Assembly: GCA_016841945.1 (NCBI GenBank)
Contig: JAENYC010000001.1
Location: 282,284 to 346,283 of the forward strand
DNA: 64,000 bases
Direction: 5' to 3'
DNA from: Haloplasma contractile
GTDB taxonomy: Bacteria > Bacillota_I > Bacilli_A > Haloplasmatales > Haloplasmataceae
Position 1 is the stretch's first letter. Each line of letters opens with the position of its first letter. This document shows positions 8,574 through 63,990 of this stretch, one piece after another. Position numbers and translations under genes: made by a program. Under the pieces are notes generated by a model. It had not been told where the DNA came from. It ran no database searches and worked only from the letters and a program-made list of their open reading frames with translations.

Positions 8574-10766
8574 TTATTTTGTCATCCTTTCTACAAAATA
8601 GATATCTTTTATTTTCTTAAGATTTTGTACGAGGTGATTTAGGCGGCCTGCATCTTCTATCAATATCTTAACTTTAATTGATGCTGTACTATCCTTATTC
8701 ACATTAGCTGATACAGCGACTATGTTAACACCTATTGTGTTAATGGAATTAATGACATCTGTTAATAAATTATTTCGATTAAAAGCTGTTATTAATAAAT
8801 CAACCTCATATTTTTTTCCTTCAAGATTTTTTGACCAATCAACATCAATCACGCGTTCATTATTTGTATCTTCTATATTTTTACAGTCTTTTTTATGAAT
8901 GGTAATCCCTTTTCCCTTTGTGACATATCCAATAATATCATCACCAGGAATAGGACTACAGCATTTAGATATTTTAATATGTGGATTATCAACGCCTTCA
9001 ACGATAATACCAGTATCACTCGTTTTATGCTGTTTAATTTTTTCTTCAGCTTTATCTTCATTAAAATGTTCTAAAATGGCTTTCACATCAAAATGATTAT
9101 CTTCATTTTCTGCTTTTTGAAGAATGGTTTGTATAGAAATAGTTTTCTTTCCTACTGCATATAATAATTCTTCTAACGAATTAACCCCTTGTTTTTGAAA
9201 TTTTTTTAGAAATTCTTCATTACTTAAAAAGTCCATTACATTAGGAACTTTACCTTCTAAAGCTTTATTTACAATATCTTTTCCTTGCTCTATATAAAGA
9301 TTACGATTTTGTTTATTGAAATATTGTTTAATTTTATTCTTAGCGTGCTGCGTCTTGACAATCTTAAACCACCCTTCACTAGGTCCATAAGATTGTTTAG
9401 ACGTTTTAATTTCAACCACATCACCGGTTTTTAATTCATAAGTTAACGGTACAATCTTTCCATTCACAATTGCACCCACTGTTTTATTTCCAATTTCACT
9501 ATGAATTCGATAAGCAAAATCAAGGGGAGTAGCCCCAGCTGGAAAATCTAGTACATCTCCATTTGGTGTGAATACATAGACATTAGCAGAAAATATATCG
9601 TCTTTCATTAAGTCTACAATACCATCTGCTTCATCATTTTCAGAATATTCCACCATATCTTTATACCATTTTAATTTCTTCTGGATTTCAACTTGTTCTT
9701 GCTCTGCACTATTATTTTTATGTTCCTTATATGCCCAATGTGCTGCAACACCATATTCTGCGACATTATCCATTTCTTCCGTACGAATTTGCACCTCAAA
9801 AATTTTTCCATTAGGACCTATTACCGTCGTATGTAACGACTGATACATATTAGGCTTAGGCATGGCAATATAGTCTTTAAAACGCTTTGGAATCGGTTTG
9901 AAATTCGCATGAATAATCCCTAAAACATGATAACAAGTCGCCTCATCCTTTACAATTAATCTTAGAGCTAATAAATCAAAAATCTCAGAGAATTCTTTGT
10001 TCTTTTCTCTCATTTTTTTATGGACACTATAGATATTTTTAATACGACCTTTTATTTCATATCTAACATCATATTCATCAAGTAATGCTTCTAATTCATC
10101 TATCATATAAGCAATATCTTGTTCACGTTCTTTTTGCTTTTCATTGATTAATCCCGCTACATAATAATATTCATCTACATCAATATAGCGTAAACATCTA
10201 TCTTCTAATTCTGATTTTAAACGATACATCCCTAATCGGTGGGCTATCGGTACAAAAATTTCGAGTGTTTCTTTACTAATAGATACTTGTTTTTCTTTAG
10301 GCATGTATTTTAGTGTCCTCATATTATGTAATCTATCAGCAAGTTTAATGATAATAACTCGTATGTCCTTCGCCATTGCAAGGAACATTTTTTGATGATT
10401 CTTTGCTAATGCTTGTTCTTTTGACACATACTTTAATTGTCCTAATTTAGAAACACCATCTACTAATGTGGTAATTTCTTCACCAAATTCTTGTGTCATC
10501 TCATAAACCGTCACACCTGTATCTTCTAATACATCATGTAATAAACCAGCGGCAATCGTATTTGGTCCAGCGTTAAAAGTAGTTAGAATATTCGCTACTT
10601 CTAACGGATGGATAATATATGGTTCACCTGACTTACGAAACTGATTATGATGTTTTTCATCAGCATATTTAAATGCTTTCTCTATAATAGACAAACTCTC
10701 TTTTTTCGTAATATAAGTTTTAGCTGATTGCATCAATTGTTCATATCTTAAGTCAATTTCAAACAT
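8574..10766 (-). CDS. relA: Bifunctional (p)ppGpp synthetase/hydrolase Rel
   Basis: 730 aa. The N-terminal HD hydrolase domain has [15 protein letters not shown] (about 70-85). The RelA_SpoT synthetase domain has [22 protein letters not shown] and AAHWAYKE (about 240-360). A TGS domain follows ([22 protein letters not shown], about 385-445), then a Zn-finger-type region with [13 protein letters not shown] (about 590) and a C-terminal ACT domain. It makes and degrades the stringent-response alarmone on stalled ribosomes. The ATG at 10766 is preferred over the GTG at 10775 because AAGGCGGTG lies at proper spacing before the ATG but overlaps the GTG. Order recJ-apt-rel-dtd is as in B. subtilis. 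Confidence 0.96.
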
Positions 10767-10800
10767 ACGATTCACCGCCTTACTTTTATTGCATCAAATT

Positions 10801-11313
10801 CTAGTATTGAATTAATGAGTATATATCATAATTTTTTAATCTATCTCTTCCTTTTAAGAATCCTAGTTCAATTAAAAACGCACATCCAACAACAATTCCT
10901 CCTAATTGTTCTACTAATTTTATTGACGCTTCTACTGTTCCGCCGGTGGCGAGTAAATCATCAATTATGACCACTTTCTCTCCTTTTTCAATCGCATCTT
11001 TATGAATACACAATTTACTAGAACCGTATTCTAAATCATATTCATATTCAATGGCTTCCCTTGGTAGTTTATCTGGTTTTCTGACGGGTACAAATCCCAC
11101 ACCCATTAAAGCTGCAACAGGTGTTCCAAATAAAAAGCCTCTGGCTTCTGGCCCAACAACTAAGGTTGCACCTTTTTCTTTTGCATATTCACTTAATTTT
11201 TCCATTGTGTATTTAAGCGCTTCCCCATTTTGCATCAATGGCGTAATATCTTTAAATAATATTCCTTTCTTTGGAAAATCAGGAACATCCGCTATAAATT
11301 TCTCAAGTTGCAT
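10801..11313 (-). CDS. apt: Adenine phosphoribosyltransferase
   Basis: 170 aa, normal length. It converts adenine plus PRPP to AMP (purine salvage). Motifs: [14 protein letters not shown] at the N terminus, [14 protein letters not shown], and the PRPP-binding loop [13 protein letters not shown] (about 117-129). Start ATG with GGAGGTTAAAT; this Shine-Dalgarno overlaps the last codons and stop of recJ (GAC GGA GGT TAA), so apt is coupled to recJ. The cluster with rel is conserved in Firmicutes. Confidence 0.96.
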
Positions 11314-11315
11314 AT

Positions 11316-13544
11316 TTAACCTCCGTCTATAATTTTTTTTACTTTATTCATAAATTCTATATGTGAGGATAAAACAAGCTCTTCTTTCATTTTTACCTGT
11401 TCTATCACTTGTTGATAGGTCTTTGATTCCGTTAATTGTCTTTTTTCAGGGTTTTCAACAACAATGATTTTATTATTCTCTATTATAACAAAATTCAACT
11501 CAAAAAACACCTGTAATGATAGGTTTTGTAACTTTTTATTAAATCCCATCTTCTCTAACTGATTAAATACCGTTATATCATGCCGTTTAAACTGTTTAAA
11601 TCTTCGATATACTGTATATATTCGGGCTAATTTCTCACGGGTTATTAAATCTTCATAAGAAAAAATATCCTCACATTTTAAGATAAAATAGATATTTTCT
11701 ACATTGGGATGATTTAAAATCATATTTAAATCATCCATTGATTTGGGAATATCAATGATTACAATATCTTTTGTTAATTCAAGATGAGGAGAAAACAACT
11801 GACTATCTTGATAACCATAATCTTTATCAAAATAAAGATATAAAAATTCTTTATTCAATACTTTTTCATCAAAGGGTTTATTTCTATAATCAAATACTTG
11901 CTTATGATGACATCTCATATCTTCAATCATGATTTGATTCGTCACTGTATTCTGATAAGTATTGATTTCAAAGGTTCCAACAACGTCTAATAAATCGTGA
12001 TTATTTATATTATAAAATAAATCTCCCATATTAAAAGCAATTGCTTCTAAAAAAAGATTATTTTTTTGTATAAGAAGTTTTAAATGTTTATTTTGTTGTC
12101 CGATTTGCATGCATTGTATCACCTCAAACCCTTCTAATAAAAAAAGTGGCTTTTGATTGGATACACCATAAGGTCTTAATTTTTGTAATTCGTTGGTTAA
12201 ATTAAGATTAATGAAAGTCTCATTAAGTTTACTATCAATTCTTAAATAATTATAAAGCTCACCTGTTGCGAGTGCATGTAATCTTTGTCTAAATGGCGTT
12301 ATATTTTCTTCTTTTATAGTTAATCCCGCTGCCATCTTATGTCCACCATATTTCTCTAATAAATCTTCACATTTCATTAAATTTTCATGAAGCGGAAAAT
12401 CTTCAAGGGTACGACTAGACCCCTTATAAACACCATTTGATTTTGTCAATACTACCACTGGTTTATGATAAATATCAACTAAACGATTACAAATGATCCC
12501 CAATACACCTTCATGCCAACCTGCTTTGCTTACTACAATTACATTAAACTGCTGAAGATTTTGCTTTTTTATCTCGTCCATCGCTTCATAGACAATATCT
12601 TCTATCTTAGCTTTTCTATTTTGATTTAAGTTTTCAATATCAGATACTAATCCTTTCGCTTCTTCAAAATCTTCTGTCACAAGTAATCTTACCGATACAT
12701 TCCCATTATCCATTCTACCTGGTGCATTTAATCTTGGACCATAAATAAAACCTAATGAATATTCATCTACTGTTTTTATATTAGCGCTTTGTCTTAACAA
12801 GCGCAAACCAAGATGCGCTGTATGCCCTAGCTGTTTTATTCCCCATTTTACAATTGAGCGATTCTCACCTCTTAAACTCACCATATCACTATAGGTTCCT
12901 AAACAAGCTAAATCAATTAAATCATAAGGTGCCTCTCCCAATAAAGCATGGGCTAATTTAAAACTGACCCCACAGCCTGCTAATTCTTTAAACGGGTATT
13001 GTTCACCCTTTAAGTTTGCATGTAAGATGGCATATGCATCTGGAATGATTTCTTTTGGTTCATGGTGGTCAGTAATAATAAAGTCAACCCCCTGAGATTT
13101 TAAATAGTTAGCTTCTTCTATTCCCGTTATCCCATTATCAACTGTTATGATGATTTTAAAACCATGTTCAACAAACTTTTTAAAGGTATTAATATTTGGT
13201 CCATATCCCTCATTAAATCGACTTGGAATATAATAATATACATTTGCGTTTAATTTTTTTAATGTTTTATATAATATCGACACTCCTGTCACACCATCTA
13301 CATCAAAATCACCATAAATCATCACTTTTTCTTGATTTTTGATAGCCTCTTTTAATCTATTCACTACTTTTTCCATATGGTTAAATAAAAATGGGTCATG
13401 AAGGACTAATTCATCACTTAAAAATCGACTTTTTTCTAAATCATTTGTTAGATTTCGATTTTTAAATAATATATCTAAGATTTCATTTTCATGATTTACA
13501 TCATCTTTATACAATAATTTCCATTTAAATTGAGAATTAAACAT
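11316..13544 (-). CDS. recJ: Single-stranded-DNA exonuclease RecJ
   Basis: 742 aa. DHH phosphoesterase motifs in order: [12 protein letters not shown] (motif I), [18 protein letters not shown] (the DHH) and [10 protein letters not shown]; then the DHHA1 motif GGHKMAAGL, an OB-like segment and the C-terminal extension of the Bacillota RecJ. It degrades ssDNA 5' to 3' in RecF-pathway recombination and base-excision or mismatch repair. The ATG at 13544 is chosen because AAGGTGAT precedes it by 7 nt; the ATG at 13565 has no such site. The gene is divergent from spoVB, without the secDF genes that lie between them in B. subtilis. Confidence 0.95.
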
Positions 13545-13627
13545 CACTATCACCTTTTTAATCATAAAACAAATTCAATGTAATTATAATTGTATAAGAA
13601 AATGATTAATTTGAAAAGGTGAAAACG

Positions 13628-15151
13628 ATGAAAAAACAAACATTTATACAAGGAACTATTATTTTAGTCGTTGTTGGCATGGTTGTGAAGGTCTTAGGAC
13701 TCATCAATCGCATGGTAATCGCAAGGTTCTTAACCTCTGATGGTATTGGAATATATATGATGGTCATGCCAACTTTTATTCTACTGATAGCCCTTGCTCA
13801 ATTAGGATTTCCAATTGCGATAAGTAAATTAGTATCAGAAAACAATATTAAACAAAAGATATCAAATCAAACAATTGTATTAAAAGCCTTAAAAATCAGT
13901 GTCATTAATAGTTTAATATTAATAACAATACTATTATTATCTGCAAAATTTTTATCCTTTCATTTACTAAATGATAAAAGAACCTATTATCCGATATTGA
14001 CACTTATTCTCTTTGTTCCTTTAGTTTCATTCTCAAGTATTATAAAAGGCTATCTACACGGTTATAAAATCATGGGAGTTCCTTCATATAGTCAATTAAT
14101 TGAACAAATCGTCCGTATATCAACGAGTATTACACTGGTTTTAATATTGTTACCCTATAGTATTGAACTGGCTGTATGTGGTGCCATTATATCGATGTCT
14201 TTAGGCGAGGTTGCATCGCTTATCTATATGATATACAAAATTAAAAATAAACGTTCATGGTATCATATCTTAAAAAAAAGAGATGAAGATAAATCTTCTG
14301 AAAAAAATATTACTAAAGACATCTTAACCATTTCACTTCCTGCAACAGGTAGCCGATTAATTGGTTCTATCTCACATTTCTTTGAGCCAATTATCTTCTC
14401 TTTTGCGATGATATCAATTGGAATTAGTAGTCACTATGTAACACGAATTTATGGTCAAATTACTGGCTATACTATCTCTTTATTGTTGGTTCCCTCTTTT
14501 TTATGTGTTGCCTTTTCAACACCACTTATTCCGATAATTTCAGAATCCTATGTGAAAAAAAATAGTGAAAAAATCAGTCACTATTTTAATCTATCCATTT
14601 TCTTGTCATTTCTTACGGGGAGTCTTTTTACTATCATCTTAACACTTTATCCTAAAGAACTAATGCAACTCTTTTTTAATACAACCGACGGTGTTATTTT
14701 CTTATCCTATATGGCCCCCTTATTTCTCATTCATTATTTTCAACTTCCCATTACTTCTACATTACATGCCGTCAATAAAGCAAAAGCGGCCATGATAAAT
14801 ACCTTGATAGGTGCTTTAATAAAACTCTTCCTCGTCTATGTTTTAGTGAGCAATCCAAGTATTAATGTGCATGGATTAACATCAGCAATCATCGTCAACT
14901 CAATATTAGTCACAATACTAGATTTTATTATTCTACGCAAAACAATTAAAATCACCTATCATTTTAAAACAATTTTTAATGCTTTTTCATTATTCATTAT
15001 TACTTATTTAATTGGCAGTATTATCAAACAATCAAATCATATTAATCCATTCCTCAACATTCTCATCATTAGTTTATTCTTCATAAGTTTTTTATTACTA
15101 TTTAATATTGGCGATATTAGAAAAATAAAGAACCAACTCTTTAATCACTAG
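13628..15151 (+). CDS. spoVB: SpoVB-type polysaccharide flippase (MOP/MATE superfamily)
   Basis: 507 aa with about 14 hydrophobic segments. The N terminus (MKKQTFIQGTIILVVVGMVVKVLGLINRMVIARFL) and GIGIYMMVMPTF are typical of the SpoVB/YtgP lipid-linked oligosaccharide flippase group. In B. subtilis SpoVB is needed for spore cortex synthesis. ATG 13628 follows AAAAGGTGAAAACG; the GTG at 13619 overlaps this site and is less likely. Its place beside DUF421, TIGR04086 and yajC matches B. subtilis spoVB-yrbG-yrzE-yrbF and favours the spoVB assignment over other flippases. Its last 11 nt overlap the convergent DUF421 gene. Confidence 0.87.
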   Translation: MKKQTFIQGTIILVVVGMVVKVLGLINRMVIARFLTSDGIGIYMMVMPTFILLIALAQLGFPIAISKLVSENNIKQKISNQTIVLKALKISVINSLILITILLLSAKFLSFHLLNDKRTYYPILTLILFVPLVSFSSIIKGYLHGYKIMGVPSYSQLIEQIVRISTSITLVLILLPYSIELAVCGAIISMSLGEVASLIYMIYKIKNKRSWYHILKKRDEDKSSEKNITKDILTISLPATGSRLIGSISHFFEPIIFSFAMISIGISSHYVTRIYGQITGYTISLLLVPSFLCVAFSTPLIPIISESYVKKNSEKISHYFNLSIFLSFLTGSLFTIILTLYPKELMQLFFNTTDGVIFLSYMAPLFLIHYFQLPITSTLHAVNKAKAAMINTLIGALIKLFLVYVLVSNPSINVHGLTSAIIVNSILVTILDFIILRKTIKITYHFKTIFNAFSLFIITYLIGSIIKQSNHINPFLNILIISLFFISFLLLFNIGDIRKIKNQLFNH

Positions 15152-15785
15152 TGTCGGTTTTAATGATGAATAATTCATCATGTTCGTAATTTGCATATAA
15201 TATTTTTTTAATATCATCATACCCCTTATCTTTTAATATTTGTTTTACATCCTCTTCATTAATATCTAAATATCTAAAATTCTCTTTTATAAAATGACCT
15301 GAGATAATAACAGGTAATGGAGATATTTTAGATTCTCCTTTCTTAAATACTGATAATGTTCCACCGACTTCTAGTATCGCATAATCAACTTCTGAAATAG
15401 AACGAATGTCTTTATCCCTTAATTGATTTAATAAATCATCAAATGTATATTTTTGTTTATTCATTTCTTTATAATCAACCCTTCCATTGGCAATTAATAC
15501 TGAAGGTGTTCCTTCAATTTTATCACGCACTTTCGAATTCTTAAGGGTGATATAACTTAATACTTTTTGTAGGAAAACTAATAATCCAATCGCTATTACA
15601 GAGTAGAATAGAGGTTTTTCTAACTCTTCTATAGAAAAAACAGAAATTTCAGCGATCATGAGAAAAATAATCAAATCAACCACATTTAATTCACCTATTT
15701 CACGTTTTCCCATGATTCGAAACGTAATAAAGATAATACCATAGTTAATAAAAACACGAAAAGTTAGTTGAAATATTTCATACAT
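15141..15785 (-). CDS. DUF421 (YetF/YrbG-like) membrane protein
   Basis: 214 aa. Three N-terminal membrane segments (about 8-28, 35-55, 60-80) are followed by the two-part cytosolic DUF421 region: GTPSVLIANGRVDYKEMNKQKYTFDDLLNQLRDKDIRSISEVDYAILEVGGTLSVFKK. Family members are common in spore-formers; some have been linked to spore germination or spore properties, but the biochemical role is unknown. Neighbours spoVB, TIGR04086 and yajC correspond to the B. subtilis yrbG locus. Its 3' end overlaps spoVB by 11 nt, tail to tail. Confidence 0.88.
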   Translation of the reverse strand: MYEIFQLTFRVFINYGIIFITFRIMGKREIGELNVVDLIIFLMIAEISVFSIEELEKPLFYSVIAIGLLVFLQKVLSYITLKNSKVRDKIEGTPSVLIANGRVDYKEMNKQKYTFDDLLNQLRDKDIRSISEVDYAILEVGGTLSVFKKGESKISPLPVIISGHFIKENFRYLDINEEDVKQILKDKGYDDIKKILYANYEHDELFIIKTDTSD

Positions 15786-15878
15786 AAGATCACCTTAAAT
15801 TTCTTAAATATATGTTATTTATTTATTCTATTAAATATTCTTTCATCATATAATTTTATTAGAAAGGGTGGTGTTATC

Positions 15879-16253
15879 ATGACTAGCAATTTTAAAAAAA
15901 ATATCTTTATATTATTAATATGGCTTATATTATCGCTAATTATAATCGCAGCATCATCAATATTAGTATATTTTAAGTTAATTAGTATCAATGAAAAATC
16001 AATATACATTTTTGTATGTGGTATTATACTATTTATCATACTGGGATTCGTAAGTGGTAATATTAAACAAAAAAAAGGCTTATTAAATGGGTTACTTATG
16101 TCCTTGTTTGTAATTATTATTCTTATCCTCGTTCAATTTTTAGGATTTAATGAAAAATTGTCACTAAGTCTTTTAGCTAAATACTTAGTATTTATGCTAT
16201 CTGGTGGTTTAGGTGGAATATTTGGTGTTAATTTTAAACCAGTTGAAAGGTAA
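15879..16253 (+). CDS. TIGR04086-type (YrzE-like) four-helix membrane protein
   Basis: 124 aa with four membrane segments, ending GGLGGIFGVNF, as in the TIGR04086 family of small Bacillota membrane proteins of unknown function. The start is ATG 15879 after AGAAAGGGTGGTGTTATC; the reading frame is open further upstream but without a ribosome site. In B. subtilis the equivalent yrzE sits between yajC (yrbF) and yrbG; here the gene has the opposite orientation to both but keeps the neighbourhood. Confidence 0.7.
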   Translation: MTSNFKKNIFILLIWLILSLIIIAASSILVYFKLISINEKSIYIFVCGIILFIILGFVSGNIKQKKGLLNGLLMSLFVIIILILVQFLGFNEKLSLSLLAKYLVFMLSGGLGGIFGVNFKPVER

Positions 16254-56835: not shown

Positions 56836-57717
56836 ATGTCATTTGATTTACTTTTTTTTAAAAATAAAGATGAAAATATTGTTTTAGATGATGTTGTATC
56901 TTATTTTGAAAACCAAAACAATTTTAAAGTTCTACCTCTAGATGATAACTATTATCGATTTATCTATCGCAATAAAGAAACACGGGTTGTATTCGTGATG
57001 ACATATAATGAAACCAATGAATTAATTTCAGACCAATCTTTTGATGAACATATAGAATATTGTTATATGTATTTTACTATTAATCTCATGAGACCATCAT
57101 TTTTCGCATATGAAGCAATGAATATTGTTGAGGCTTTTATCAATACATTTCATCTATATATTTATGATATTCAAAGTCTTACAGAGGATAAAAATACTGT
57201 TAAATCCTACACAAGGGATGAGCTCATACAATCCTATATTCAAAATAATAATCTAATCTGTCAAGAATATAAAAAATCCTTTCCACTATTGTCAATTGAA
57301 AAAGAAAAAACGGATTATTTTTATTCCTATGTAATTAATAAAGAACAACTAGCAACAGATGAGATGATTTTACCTGATATATTTTTTATAAAAAATATCA
57401 ATGACGAATCATTACATAGTGTTTTTTCTTTTGATGATATTGAAAGAACACTTATACCAAAATGTGATTTTGTATTAGTATTAAAACAAGAAAAAGGCTT
57501 TCTCGGTATTAAAAAGAAAAGAACAAGTTTAATCCCTTATCAAACTTTTATCAATCAATTTAAACATATGTTAGAACCCCTAAATGATTTAGACCTTTAT
57601 GTCTTAAATCCTGTAGATGAAACAAAGGCTAGAGAATGTTATGAAAATTTACCACAGATTGACCATGATAAGTTTGATATGATTAACGTTGATGAAATAG
57701 TTGATGTAGATTTATAA
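56836..57717 (+). CDS. Unknown 293-residue cytosolic protein
   Basis: 293 aa, start ATG 56836 with AAAGGAGAAATAAA. No signal or membrane segment. Acidic, with MSFDLLFFKNKDENIVLDDVVSYFE at the N terminus, a middle rich in Asn/Tyr, and FLGIKKKRTSLIPYQTFINQFKHML near residue 235. The pattern resembles uncharacterised immunity-like or DUF-type proteins, but I cannot name a family. Convergent with jetC, sharing the terminator region, and not obviously related to JetD. Confidence 0.6.
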   Translation: MSFDLLFFKNKDENIVLDDVVSYFENQNNFKVLPLDDNYYRFIYRNKETRVVFVMTYNETNELISDQSFDEHIEYCYMYFTINLMRPSFFAYEAMNIVEAFINTFHLYIYDIQSLTEDKNTVKSYTRDELIQSYIQNNNLICQEYKKSFPLLSIEKEKTDYFYSYVINKEQLATDEMILPDIFFIKNINDESLHSVFSFDDIERTLIPKCDFVLVLKQEKGFLGIKKKRTSLIPYQTFINQFKHMLEPLNDLDLYVLNPVDETKARECYENLPQIDHDKFDMINVDEIVDVDL

Positions 57718-57723
57718 AATTAT

Positions 57724-57754
57724 AACGCTCTTAAATTTGATTTAAGAGCGTTTT
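57724..57754. terminator. Terminator between the unknown gene and jetC
   Basis: A 12-bp stem (AACGCTCTTAAA/TTTAAGAGCGTT) with loop TTTGA and TT/AA edges. It can close both the plus-strand unknown gene and the minus-strand jet operon. No jetD reading frame lies between jetC and this hairpin. Confidence 0.82.
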
Positions 57755-57758
57755 CTAA

Positions 57759-60700
57759 TTAGTTATCTTTTAGATATGAGAAAGACTCTATAAATGATTT
57801 ATCATCATCCTTCATCACAACCAATGTGGTGTTAACATGTGGAAGAATGGTTTCAATTCGTTGAGGCGGTACAGCAATCATAAGTTGAATATTGAGTTGT
57901 TTATAAAATTCCATCATTGCTTGAATTCTTGATTCATCCATATTGTTGAATGCCTCATCAAACATCACAAAACAAGCTGGTGAAGTTCGAACTTTCTTAT
58001 CCGCAATAAGTTGTTCAAAACTAGCTGCAATCACAACATAAAATGGTGTTTGAGTTTCCCCACCACTTTTTTCTCGATTTACCTTAGAAAAGTAAGTCAT
58101 TTCTCCATTTTTATGATGAATTTTTATATCGTAACTCATATAATTACGATAATCACAAAATTTAGATAAGGCGAGTTCTGCTTCATGATCATTTCTATCA
58201 ATCACCAATTTATCAAATAATTCTTTTAAAACTAATTTATTTTGATCACTAATGGTTTCTGAAAATAATGCTTGTTCATAATCTTCTTCACTCATAATTA
58301 AATGATAATATCGTTCATATTCATGATTAGGATTAGCTTTATATATAAACTCGTACTCATCTCCTCCAAACTTCTTACCTTTTAATGCCTCATTCAAATG
58401 ATTTAATTCTTCATGGGCATTCATCATATTTTCTCTTAATTTATATATAAATTGCTCCTTAAACGCTATTTCACAATTGATACGTGCCTCTGTTGCTTGA
58501 TTTTGATATTTAAATAGTTCATAATTTTTGATTTTGTTTAGTTCATTTAGGTAATTATCCACTCCATCAACAGTAGGACTGTATCCAACATGATATTTTA
58601 AATTATATTGATTCATGCGTGTCATTAAGTTCATCCGAGTATTCTTTATTTTTTCTTCTATATCTTTTATTTTATCTTGACAAACATTAATAATCTTACT
58701 GTGTTTACCTAAATACTCTTGATTTAAATCTTCATAATATTTTGTTATTTCGGAATCAAAAACCTTTTTACACTTCGCTTTTTCTTCCTGTATCTCATTT
58801 AATAGATGGCTTTTATTTTCTAAATCACTCGATAATTTCCCCTCTTTAAGAAAGCAATTTTTCTTTTCTTCTTCTAGTTTTTTGTGATTTTCTTTTTTTA
58901 ACTTTAATGCATATTGTAAATGGCTTAATTCTTGTGAACTTGTTATTTTTTTGTATTTTTGTTTTTCAATAGCTAATTCTTCTTCTATTCTTTTTAGAGA
59001 TTTTATCGCATGAATATTTTCTTTAAGATAATTCAGCTGCGAAGCTTTTAATCGTTCCAAATAGAATTCTTTCAAAGATATGTTTTTTAGACATTGTTCT
59101 TTCTTCTCCTTTAAAGATAACAACATTTTTTTATTAGATATAAGTTGTAAACGAACAGCTTCTATCCCTATATATGGTTTTTTATAAATGTCTTCATGGA
59201 TTTGTCTTGCACAATGATTTTTATATACCATACATGATTTTGTAATTGCTGTTTTACATTTTTTTAAATCTTCTAATTTTTCACAACAAATAACACGATT
59301 AAGTAACATATTAATATAAAACTTTGCATGATAATGTTGTGTTTTAATCTTAGATGCCAATGAATTTTCATTTGTTTCCTGATAAGTTGATAAAGTTTGT
59401 GTATTAACAAGTCCAACACCATATAATCGTTCTGCCTTTTTATATTTTTCATAAATATTTAAAGCTAAATCAAAATAAATGGGTTCTACAAATAAATCAA
59501 AACGCTGAGTATTTAAATATCCTTCTAAAGCTTGTCTCCACGTTTCATCTTTTACTTCTATGAGTTCACATAATGCGTAGACTTTACAATTTTTATTGGT
59601 AATACGCATAATTTCTTTTTCAATCAATGACTTTAGTTTTTCTACTTGAGGATTAAATTTCACTTGATTTTTTTCTAAATAATAGAGTTCTTCTTTTGTC
59701 TTATTCATTTGTTCATCAAGGGTATGTTTTTCCTTTTTAATTTCATTTATTTCAATTAACAGTTCTCCTTTTAATTTTTCATACAAGTCTATCAGTTCTT
59801 GAATCTGTTTCTTAACTTCTAATTCATGGTTTAAATCATACTTTACTAGTAAACGCTCATCTATTTTAATATTTTGATAAACATAATTGGCTAAATTATT
59901 CTCATGTTTTTGAATCTCTTTTAAATCACGTACATGTTCAATTAATCTCACTTTTTCTTTTTCTTTATCTATTATCTTCTTTTCTAAGTCTTGATAATAT
60001 GAATAGATTTCATTACGGTTGAGTGCTCTATTTAAATGTTCTATCTCCTCATCTAATGCACTTAGTTGAGTTTCTAAACTCAACTCCAACTCCTTCGTTT
60101 TTTTTATTGCCATTCTAATACTACCTATTTCATTAATCATTCTTTTCTCTTTTTCAACTACATCTCTAAAATGAGTATATTTAATGACTTGAGAGATCAA
60201 ATTTTGTTTTTCTATGTCATCTTTATAATAATCATAATCCTTTGAAATAGTTGATAATAATGATTGTTTTTCCATTAATGTCTCAACTAAATTTTCAAAT
60301 TCACGATAACTTCTTACATTTTGCCTTAAATCATCAATGGATACATTTTTTTCATTTAATAAAAAATCAAATACAAACTTATTTAACTCCTCTATTGGTC
60401 GAAAAGCGAGGGCTTTAGGGATTAACTCAATATATTTATCATCTTTAATACCTAAAATATTTAAAAATAATTGCCTTGTTTTTTCTTTAGTGTCTGTAAA
60501 AACCACTTCAATATCTTCATTCATTAGATACTTCTTGTATAACGCATATCCCCTTATAATATTATTGTCTATAAAGAGTTGATCGCTAATCTCACAATTT
60601 TTTAATACATAAAAATGTTCATTTATCCTATTAGAACGATTGATTTCAATTACAACCCCGATTACTAATGACTTAAGTGTTAACTCATCTTGAAATTGCA

Positions 60701-60977
60701 GGGCAATATGAGAGGTCACATCTTGGTTACGTAAATAGGTCTTATTTTCTATTCCTAATTTACATCTAATATACCCTTCTAAATCTCTTTTTGCGCGTTG
60801 ATTCGCAGCGTTATTAAACTTAGCTTTTCCACCTGTCAAAATATATTGAATCGCATCGAGAAAAGTAGATTTACCGGCTCCATTTTCACCCGATAATAAA
60901 GCATTATGATTAATCTCTACCGTTTGATTTGAAAAAAGATGCCAATTAATGAGTTTTATCCGAATTAATTTCTTCAT
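57759..60977 (-). CDS. jetC: JetC: SMC-like ATPase of a Wadjet/MksB-type complex
   Basis: 1072 aa from ATG 60977 (GGAAGGG upstream; the longer frame has no site). N-terminal KKLIRIKLINWHLFSNQTVEINH and Walker A GENGAGKST (30-38), extensive heptad-type coiled coils (about 270-450 and 640-900) around a hinge region, signature KSGGETQTPFYVVIAASF and Walker B FVMFDEAFNNMDESR near the C terminus. This is the SMC-type ATPase that in Wadjet/MksB/EptC systems extrudes DNA loops and senses plasmid-like circles. It overlaps jetB by 32 nt. The nuclease gene jetD, expected downstream, is absent. Confidence 0.92.
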   Translation of the reverse strand: MKKLIRIKLINWHLFSNQTVEINHNALLSGENGAGKSTFLDAIQYILTGGKAKFNNAANQRAKRDLEGYIRCKLGIENKTYLRNQDVTSHIALQFQDELTLKSLVIGVVIEINRSNRINEHFYVLKNCEISDQLFIDNNIIRGYALYKKYLMNEDIEVVFTDTKEKTRQLFLNILGIKDDKYIELIPKALAFRPIEELNKFVFDFLLNEKNVSIDDLRQNVRSYREFENLVETLMEKQSLLSTISKDYDYYKDDIEKQNLISQVIKYTHFRDVVEKEKRMINEIGSIRMAIKKTKELELSLETQLSALDEEIEHLNRALNRNEIYSYYQDLEKKIIDKEKEKVRLIEHVRDLKEIQKHENNLANYVYQNIKIDERLLVKYDLNHELEVKKQIQELIDLYEKLKGELLIEINEIKKEKHTLDEQMNKTKEELYYLEKNQVKFNPQVEKLKSLIEKEIMRITNKNCKVYALCELIEVKDETWRQALEGYLNTQRFDLFVEPIYFDLALNIYEKYKKAERLYGVGLVNTQTLSTYQETNENSLASKIKTQHYHAKFYINMLLNRVICCEKLEDLKKCKTAITKSCMVYKNHCARQIHEDIYKKPYIGIEAVRLQLISNKKMLLSLKEKKEQCLKNISLKEFYLERLKASQLNYLKENIHAIKSLKRIEEELAIEKQKYKKITSSQELSHLQYALKLKKENHKKLEEEKKNCFLKEGKLSSDLENKSHLLNEIQEEKAKCKKVFDSEITKYYEDLNQEYLGKHSKIINVCQDKIKDIEEKIKNTRMNLMTRMNQYNLKYHVGYSPTVDGVDNYLNELNKIKNYELFKYQNQATEARINCEIAFKEQFIYKLRENMMNAHEELNHLNEALKGKKFGGDEYEFIYKANPNHEYERYYHLIMSEEDYEQALFSETISDQNKLVLKELFDKLVIDRNDHEAELALSKFCDYRNYMSYDIKIHHKNGEMTYFSKVNREKSGGETQTPFYVVIAASFEQLIADKKVRTSPACFVMFDEAFNNMDESRIQAMMEFYKQLNIQLMIAVPPQRIETILPHVNTTLVVMKDDDKSFIESFSYLKDN

Positions 60978-61590
60978 GATGATACCCTTCCTTTTTATAA
61001 GTCGATAATTTATCATATACTTGATTAATATCATCTATATGTACCGCGTATAAAATCGTTGGATAAATTAAGATTCTACTCTGGTCACAATTATAATTTG
61101 AATCTAGTACTTCAATTAAATTGAAACGACGAAATTTTGATAAGATGTATTTTAATTCGGTCTTACTAATCCGTCTGTCTTGAAGGCCTGTTTGTAGAAA
61201 TTTATCATGAATTTCTTCTAATTGTATAATGACGTTATTACTTAATGAGACTTCTCGCATCTTATCATCATATAGTAGTCTTATGATCAATAAAAAAATG
61301 CTTTCATTTAAACGCAAAGATAAACGATTGCTACCTTGCCTATGAAATAAAGCAATGACACGATGATTGGCGTTAAATAATAATTCACAATCCATGAGCA
61401 AAAAATAAGTTCTAAATAAATCATAATGACTTGAAATAAAATAATAATCGTTCACATCGCTTTCTTTTTGATTGGTTAAATAATTAACAAATAGAACCTT
61501 ATTCACAATACGTGAAAAATTAACTTTGTCTTTTTCATGTAACTCGATATATTGTTGATAAAAAAGTAAAGCTTGTCCATTTTCAATCAT
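60946..61590 (-). CDS. jetB: JetB: MksE/DUF4194-like accessory subunit
   Basis: 214 aa. A winged-helix kleisin-partner subunit: FRTYFLLMDCELLFNANHRVIALF, LSLRLNESIFLLIIRLLYDDK and the DUF4194 block RISKTELKYILSKFRRFNLIEV...RILIYPTILYAV. It overlaps jetA by 8 nt and jetC by 32 nt, a tight three-gene operon. Confidence 0.88.
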   Translation of the reverse strand: MIENGQALLFYQQYIELHEKDKVNFSRIVNKVLFVNYLTNQKESDVNDYYFISSHYDLFRTYFLLMDCELLFNANHRVIALFHRQGSNRLSLRLNESIFLLIIRLLYDDKMREVSLSNNVIIQLEEIHDKFLQTGLQDRRISKTELKYILSKFRRFNLIEVLDSNYNCDQSRILIYPTILYAVHIDDINQVYDKLSTYKKEGYHHEEINSDKTH

Positions 61591-62926
61591 GATTCTTTCC
61601 CCTTATTTCAAAATCATAAAATAAAAAACCGTATTGATTAAAAACTTTATTTAATCTTTTAATTTCATAATCAACATGATTAGTCGAATAAAGATATATT
61701 AATATTAACTTTGTATAATCCTCTAATGAGTCAAGAGGTAAAGACGACGCTGTTATCTTTTCTCGATTTTTTAAAAATTTCATCACATAAGCATTTATAC
61801 TCTTTGGGCTAAATACACTTGATTCAAGATATTTCTCAAATCTCAGTTGTTTTTCTTCAGAAGTTAGATTAACTTCACACTCGATGGTCTGTAAAGTTAC
61901 TTCAGTTTGTCTAGTTGGCATGGTATATAATGAATTCTTTTCCAAGTATTTCTGTGGAAATAATCTAAATAATGAAGGATGAATTTTTTTATGATTTACC
62001 ATATCCCGAAGTATTTTAATGATTTTCCCTTCTAAATCTTGAGTATTATTGACAATAAACAAAATTTTAGAGATGGATGTTTGAATATATTTGGCATTTT
62101 TCTTATCAATTTCATTCATAATTAATTCAAAATTCTCAAAACTCGAAATAATATAATCAATTTGTTTAAATATATAGGTTTTTGCATCTTCTTGATGAGA
62201 AAATCTTTTTTTATCTATTAAATCTAAACACGCTTTGTTAATCATCTCTTGGTTTATACTAATTTCATTTAAACGACTGATAATAAAAGGACGATATTTA
62301 CTGATATTATCAGAGGTTTTTAACCGGTGATAGTGATTATCTATGATATTTTTTTTATAATCAATGAATAGATTATCCACGATACTTTGTAAATCATGAA
62401 CTGTATTTTTATTCAATAATCCTTGAATATATCTCTTTATATTAGCATTTAGTGATTTTAGTTTATTCATAATTATCGTGGTATTATGATAGATTTGGTC
62501 TAGCAAATCAGTCAATGATTCAATCTCCATATTTTTAAGTGCTAAATATATTAAATAAATATAACTTAAATATTCTAATTCATCATGTTGTTTTAAATCA
62601 TAAAGGGTCTTTAATATAGGAATAGCATAATCAGTAAAATTAATAAAGACTTCATAATTTTGATCATCTTCTTCAAAAACCCAACCACATTGTTTGAATC
62701 TTCGTAGGACACCAACTGCTTTCTCCCTTGGTTTATCATCTTCTTTATCATAAAAATAATCCGTTAATAATTCTATAATGGATTCCTTTTTTCCTCCAAA
62801 AGAAAAACCTTTCCCTAAATAGATAAACATTAAAAATAAACAATCAGAATAGACGGTTTGATAAGAACAGGATAATACACTAAAAAATTGTTCAGGAAGT
62901 ATGTTAAATATTTTTTGTTGATTCAT
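61583..62926 (-). CDS. jetA: JetA: MksF/kleisin-like subunit (DUF5716-like)
   Basis: 447 aa. FGGKKESIIELLTDYFYDKEDD, VLRRFKQCGWVFEEDDQNYEVFINFTDYAIPILKTLYDL and a long helical body, then SSLPLDSLEDYTKLILIYLYST at the end, resemble the JetA-family (Wadjet type with DUF5716-like JetA) kleisin-like proteins. It precedes jetB. Start ATG 62926 after AAAGAGTGGTTGT. Confidence 0.82.
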   Translation of the reverse strand: MNQQKIFNILPEQFFSVLSCSYQTVYSDCLFLMFIYLGKGFSFGGKKESIIELLTDYFYDKEDDKPREKAVGVLRRFKQCGWVFEEDDQNYEVFINFTDYAIPILKTLYDLKQHDELEYLSYIYLIYLALKNMEIESLTDLLDQIYHNTTIIMNKLKSLNANIKRYIQGLLNKNTVHDLQSIVDNLFIDYKKNIIDNHYHRLKTSDNISKYRPFIISRLNEISINQEMINKACLDLIDKKRFSHQEDAKTYIFKQIDYIISSFENFELIMNEIDKKNAKYIQTSISKILFIVNNTQDLEGKIIKILRDMVNHKKIHPSLFRLFPQKYLEKNSLYTMPTRQTEVTLQTIECEVNLTSEEKQLRFEKYLESSVFSPKSINAYVMKFLKNREKITASSLPLDSLEDYTKLILIYLYSTNHVDYEIKRLNKVFNQYGFLFYDFEIRGKNHD

Positions 62927-63201: not shown

Positions 63202-63990
63202 TTGAAAAGAAGATTCTTTTTGTTTCTTTTATGTTTAATGTTTATCATGCTAAGCAGTTGCAACAAAAGCTCCACCACTACAACAAATACTGAAACTCTA
63301 CATCCGCTATATAATGAAAGCCACCTCACCCTGAATTTTAATTACACTCATATTGATGCTATATATGAAATCGATAATCAAACATTAGTTCATTATCAAA
63401 ATGGTAGTCATGATTATCTAGCACTAATCAATCAGAGTAACGAAATACTCTGGACCAAAGGTCCATACAATTTTGGAAGTATTATTAATATTTTAAATGG
63501 AATAATTACTGATTCAAGTGCTGGAACGATAGACATAATGAAGTTCGATTTAAGTGGTGATACAGTATGGCAATTTGAAAACTATACTAAAGTTAATGAC
63601 ATATCACAACCTATTAGTTGCTTTAAAAATCAAGAGAGCCATATGGTTTGTCTGAATAATTATGGAGATTTAATATATGATAAAAGCACATTAAAAAATA
63701 TTGAGTATTTGACAAATGATAATTCCTCTTATTTTGCTTATAATTATACAGATGAAGAGGAACACCTCAGTTTTAAATTGATAAATGAATTAGGTCAAGA
63801 ACTCATTAATTTAGAACAACATGTTTATCATGTTAAAATAACCGATAACTTCATCTATCTATTTTGTAATCATAGGATTTTTAAATATTCATTAGAAGGT
63901 GAACTTGTATTTGAGATCAATAATGATGTAAATCACGAGTATAATTATAGAATTGAACTTTTTTCTGAAACTGGTGATATCTTTTATTAG
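63202..63990 (+). CDS. Beta-propeller-like lipoprotein
   Basis: 262 aa. Lipoprotein signal MKRRFFLFLLCLMFIMLSSC (Cys20), then repeated beta-strand units like TLVHYQNGSHDYLALINQSNEILWTKG, TIDIMKFDLSGDTVWQFENYT and FIYLFCNHRIFKYSLEGELVFEIN, typical of PQQ/WD-like propellers. Start TTG 63202, 8 nt after AGGAGG. It ends in TAG at 63988; the same frame stays open for the remaining bases of the window, so a premature stop cannot be excluded. Confidence 0.65.
   Translation: MKRRFFLFLLCLMFIMLSSCNKSSTTTTNTETLHPLYNESHLTLNFNYTHIDAIYEIDNQTLVHYQNGSHDYLALINQSNEILWTKGPYNFGSIINILNGIITDSSAGTIDIMKFDLSGDTVWQFENYTKVNDISQPISCFKNQESHMVCLNNYGDLIYDKSTLKNIEYLTNDNSSYFAYNYTDEEEHLSFKLINELGQELINLEQHVYHVKITDNFIYLFCNHRIFKYSLEGELVFEINNDVNHEYNYRIELFSETGDIFY

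Follow-up and report, generated by a model that had tools for sequence, protein, structure and literature searches.

The 64,000-nt stretch of the Haloplasma contractile genome analyzed here (the window) carries at positions 57759-62926 an intact type I Wadjet operon, jetA-jetB-jetC, without jetD. In the most probable reading, the operon codes for a type I Wadjet core that has stably lost JetD and now acts as a loop-extruding condensin for the cell's own chromosome, and such cores have probably taken over the role of SMC-ScpAB in relatives where the latter is missing. It is probably a housekeeping chromosome folder, because relatives keep a nuclease-free version of it, and many of these relatives lack the usual chromosome-organizing complex.

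Structure of the operon and its borders

The three genes lie on the reverse strand and overlap, jetA (61583-62926) and jetB (60946-61590) by 8 nt and jetB and jetC (57759-60977) by 32 nt. The original prediction had recognized JetA, JetB, and JetC with these overlaps from the letters of the sequence, and the PADLOC searches agreed, giving JetA1, JetB1, and JetC1 as the best matches. The jetA gene encodes a kleisin subunit of 447 aa (JetA1, 3e-119; Pfam PF18982, 9.4e-89), jetB a KITE subunit of 214 aa (JetB1, 9.3e-65; Pfam DUF4194, 6.6e-24), and jetC an SMC-like ATPase of 1072 aa (JetC1, 1.1e-299); the start of jetC was taken as the ATG at 60977, the longest ORF beginning at 61034. The jetB product also matched Pfam MksE at 1.6e-5, under the MksE cut-off, and no sequence relative of JetA was found among solved structures. 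JetC has a Walker A motif (GENGAGKS, residue 30), a signature motif (SGGE, 971), and a Walker B motif (FDEAF, 1006), and its key ATPase residues were invariant across the alignment of JetC relatives.

In a complete operon, jetD is expected downstream of jetC. At this site we found a bidirectional terminator-like stem of 13 pairs (57724-57752, both strands; terminator scan) and then, outside the operon, a convergent gene of 293 aa on the forward strand (56836-57717; no Pfam or PADLOC match), which ends 41 nt from jetC. All three core subunits of type I Wadjet are encoded in the operon, but the Toprim nuclease JetD is not; the stem and the end of the convergent gene follow jetC within 41 nt, much as the prediction of a terminator and an unrelated gene about 40 nt past jetC had it. 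The 293-aa gene forms a conserved downstream border, with homologues adjoining jetC in three relatives (G001, G003, and G005). The lipoprotein gene predicted upstream of jetA was also recovered, as a lipoprotein-like gene at 63202 that is divergent from jetA and 275 nt away.

Two observations concern the surroundings of the operon. Successive ORFs at 63202-63990 of the window and at L003:11292-11993 resemble a single lipoprotein gene split by a stop or a frameshift, and this interrupted pair was not conserved among the compared relatives. A gene just beyond the window (L003:12735-13637) encodes a protein that matched PDC-S08, a candidate defence family in PADLOC (1e-114), and of which no homologue was seen adjoining the operon in the compared relatives.

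Of two findings that would have counted against the original prediction, a jetD concealed by the assembly was ruled out, and membership in another SMC family such as MukBEF was not supported. The operon lies at C5:340042-345209, well inside a 370-kb contig whose ends are too far off to conceal a jetD, and that of the same-genus genome G001 lies inside a 3.2-Mb contig. No Muk family model of Pfam was matched, the products matching JetC1, JetA, and DUF4194 instead. A divergent JetD downstream was likewise ruled out for the operons checked, in which the next genes are housekeeping genes or have no known function. Neither an SMC hinge nor ScpA or ScpB partners were matched in the operon.

Distribution and inheritance of operons with and without JetD

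A genome-wide search revealed a single JetD in H. contractile, the last gene of a complete type I jetABCD operon at C5:57594-64008 (L002:9595-16009; jetA 14621-16009, jetB 14007-14633, jetC 10784-14029, jetD 9595-10836), 276 kb from the jetD-less operon. This JetD matched JetD1 over its length (1e-129), and the JetA and JetB of the complete operon are also of type I. An SMC hinge was found at C5:361101 and ScpB on C10. The genome therefore encodes three SMC-type machines, SMC-ScpAB, JetABC, and JetABCD, and JetABC is not the sole condensin of H. contractile. The original prediction had left three options and proposed a genome-wide JetD search. A condensin-only complex is now the best supported and incompleteness through an assembly error is excluded; a nuclease does exist elsewhere, but only within the separate paralogous jetABCD operon at 57.6 kb of C5.

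We surveyed 149 genomes (H. contractile and relatives, most of them >90% complete), judging absence by profile search. JetC was found in 42 genomes and JetA in 41, and operon maps showed 38 genomes with a jetABC set that has no jetD next to it; 32 of the 38 have no JetD gene anywhere. The conserved absence in relatives for which the original prediction had asked is illustrated by G001 (two contigs), one of these 32, whose JetC is 65% identical to that of the window. JetD is present in G003 and G005, but as part of separate operons of type III and type II, respectively, and G004 and G006 have one operon copy with JetD and one without. Tenericutes bacterium MO-XQ (complete chromosome; L114, L143) carries one jetABCD operon and one jetABC operon, as H. 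contractile does, and has neither SMC nor ScpB. In five genera, jetA, jetB, and jetC are all intact at a JetC identity of 48-65%. When the contigs of named genomes were searched for JetC, an alignment query gave matches and a single-protein query gave none.

Two further loci were recorded. In G002, the jetD of a JetD-bearing operon is split into two ORFs of 210 and 129 aa (L045:3626-4864) and is possibly a broken nuclease. Eubacterium sp. RGIG2473 (L123) has jetABC without an adjacent jetD within a clostridial JetD-bearing clade, with JetD elsewhere in the genome.

In the JetC trees, the jetD-less copies of H. contractile (G000), G001, G003, G004, and G005 formed one clade (SH-aLRT 100) and the JetD-bearing copies of Haloplasmataceae another (support 96-98). 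The jetD-less copy is an orthologous clade of its own in these five genomes and holds a conserved chromosomal position. Over 81 JetC sequences, in a tree that took in Clostridia and Coprobacillaceae, JetD status changed at least 4 times, compared with a mean of 24.4 when labels were shuffled. JetD-bearing Coprobacillaceae and MO-XQ were placed among jetD-less clades, indicating repeated losses or a few regains of JetD.

Sequence markers of JetD were also considered. Residue 287 of JetA (window numbering) is almost always Lys where jetD is absent and almost always Arg where it is present, but was rejected as a marker since it showed no significant independent association; with only two changes on the tree, the pattern is possibly just ancestry. 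An IFDR motif at the JetB N-terminus is reported to contact JetD (PMC10586767). It was not visible there even in JetD-bearing relatives, so it is uninformative.

Both SMC hinge and ScpB were missing from 32 JetC-bearing relatives, 31 of them jetD-less; G136 is SMC-less, yet its operon bears JetD. Named genomes that agree include Peloplasma aerotolerans, Haploplasma modicum, several Acholeplasmataceae MAGs, and three phytoplasmas (0.5-0.6 Mb). JetABC does not accompany every loss of SMC-ScpAB, since about 39 relatives in the 149-genome set had no detectable SMC hinge, ScpB, or JetC. A tree-aware test of the association between SMC and JetD had 2-3 independent pairs only, too few to reach significance, and was not significant. 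Several weak matches were rejected on inspection. Those to the SMC hinge fall inside JetC itself in G056, G067, G129, and MO-XQ; in H. modicum and one phytoplasma the matching ORFs are as long as JetC. Those to ScpB in G011 and G128 belong to HATPase/winged-helix regulators. G125 also gave a weak ScpB match.

The phytoplasmas (L129, L144, L163) have JetB and JetC, with no detectable adjacent JetA, no JetD, and no SMC or ScpB. Their kleisin may have diverged, lie elsewhere, or have been lost. The single phytoplasma smc annotation was described as unclear in a 2011 review (PMC3322544).

Proposed function and rival explanations

In Wadjet, JetABC extrudes DNA loops, and JetD cuts once a small circle has been fully extruded (PMC10586767). 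The JetC ATPase, the JetA kleisin, and the JetB KITE subunit would together form the motor core, and by homology with Wadjet this motor, deprived of JetD, would extrude loops without cutting. The predicted outcome is that loops of the cell's own chromosome are enlarged by ATP hydrolysis, with no final cut. We infer the loop extrusion, the chromosomal target, and the replacement of SMC-ScpAB alike. In Haloplasmataceae, the complex would act beside SMC-ScpAB, and in H. contractile also beside the anti-plasmid JetABCD. In Acholeplasmataceae, phytoplasmas, and several other families of the class, where the jetD-less complex occurs and SMC and ScpB are missing, it has probably taken over their role. 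The jetABC complex is probably accessory in H. contractile and the main condensin in several sister families.

Alternatively, JetABC could still act against plasmids or other foreign DNA by compaction, silencing, sequestration, or another nuclease instead of JetD cleavage. We give this a small chance. The family has a defensive history, and no function is known for some of the neighbours or for the convergent 293-aa gene that relatives share. However, the gene neighbourhoods point elsewhere. Around the jetD-less locus of five Haloplasmataceae (G000, G001, G003, G004, and G005), common neighbours recur in varying subsets. One flank has genes for a membrane protein and a small XRE-like regulator; the other has the convergent 293-aa gene and genes for an aldehyde dehydrogenase and a thioredoxin-like protein. 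The profile-tested genomes of families f20 and f22 (G104 and G145) have dnaK and dnaJ ahead of the operon, and in f22 rsmE and mtaB come after it. In Acholeplasmataceae, it adjoins pepC-like or ptsI genes, often with a DEAD-box helicase gene upstream, and in G009 it lies near rpoA. No nuclease was found among the annotated downstream genes of the sister-family operons, several downstream genes having no match, and no immediate neighbour had a specific defence match except the PDC-S08 candidate just beyond the window. Mobile defence genes would not be expected to keep their chromosomal positions or to descend family by family as these operons do, and JetB and JetC are kept even in the strongly reduced genomes of phytoplasmas.

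It is likewise unlikely that the operon is an anti-plasmid module with a wider target range that borrows JetD in trans from the jetABCD 276 kb away. The genome does encode a full-length JetD of type I, and G004, G006, and MO-XQ likewise carry copies with and without JetD. Nevertheless, the two JetC proteins of H. contractile are only 38% identical and fall in separate clades, and the 32 relatives with a jetD-less operon and no JetD at all argue against such borrowing. Since G001, of the same genus, has the operon and no JetD anywhere, JetD in trans is not generally required; its use is possible in H. contractile and cannot be the general explanation. A functionless, decaying remnant is very improbable: although a component essential for Wadjet defence is missing, the ORFs are intact at 48-65% JetC identity with invariant ATPase motifs, and jetA, jetB, and jetC of H. 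contractile and G001 are under purifying selection (dN 0.22-0.26, dS 1.1-1.6; dN/dS ~0.16-0.19, close to the 0.13 of a neighbouring ABC transporter gene, with dS near saturation).

Returning to the condensin reading, we see about an even chance that nuclease-free cores became the main SMC-type condensin of Acholeplasmataceae with phytoplasmas and of several sister families after SMC-ScpAB was lost, Haloplasmataceae representing an intermediate stage with three SMC machines in one genome. If true, a plasmid-defence machine would have turned to chromosome housekeeping, independently of MukBEF. Living relatives show the proposed stages side by side: a complete Wadjet, a nuclease-free copy together with SMC-ScpAB, and such a copy where SMC-ScpAB is gone. 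This reading could also explain how acholeplasmas and phytoplasmas organize their chromosomes, and it suggests that JetABC lacking JetD should be left out when defence finders tally anti-plasmid systems. We found no open-access paper on jetD-less JetABC in these bacteria or on its tie to the absence of SMC-ScpAB; subscription papers and preprints were outside the search, and the novelty is provisional.

Comparison with known SMC systems

Type I Wadjet (JetABCD/MksBEFG) shares with the operon the PADLOC families JetA1, JetB1, and JetC1, the gene order, and the overlaps, and has a complete member in the same genome. In contrast, jetD is stably missing here across a family-wide clade and several sister families, and the jetD-less operons hold conserved positions among non-defence genes. 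SMC-ScpAB resembles JetABC in the proposed function; it differs in being encoded by separate genes in H. contractile and in being missing from the 31 relatives with jetD-less jetABC.

MukBEF of enterobacteria has the same kleisin-KITE-SMC composition. A Wadjet-like ancestry has been proposed for this condensin, which is also proposed to have taken the place of SMC-ScpAB. However, no Muk family was matched here, and JetC matches JetC1 and only weakly the MukB structure 3EUJ.

The closest parallel is MksBEF of Pseudomonas aeruginosa, a MukBEF-like, nuclease-free core of three subunits that occurs together with SMC-ScpAB. The H. contractile operon likewise has SMC, kleisin, and KITE genes without MksG/JetD, stable in relatives, and intact SMC ATPase motifs. 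MksBEF of P. aeruginosa has been proposed to derive from JetABCD through loss of JetD and to have a role in chromosome organization (PMC10586767; PMC7485682). The origin of both MukBEF and MksBEF from Wadjet by nuclease loss is so far a proposal (PMC10586767). Unlike MksBEF, the operon described here comes from Haloplasmataceae and relatives and is clearly of the JetABC type I, and sister families of Haloplasmataceae lack SMC-ScpAB itself. The route to MksBEF through loss of JetD, already proposed for Pseudomonas, has its parallel here in the class of Haloplasma and Acholeplasma.
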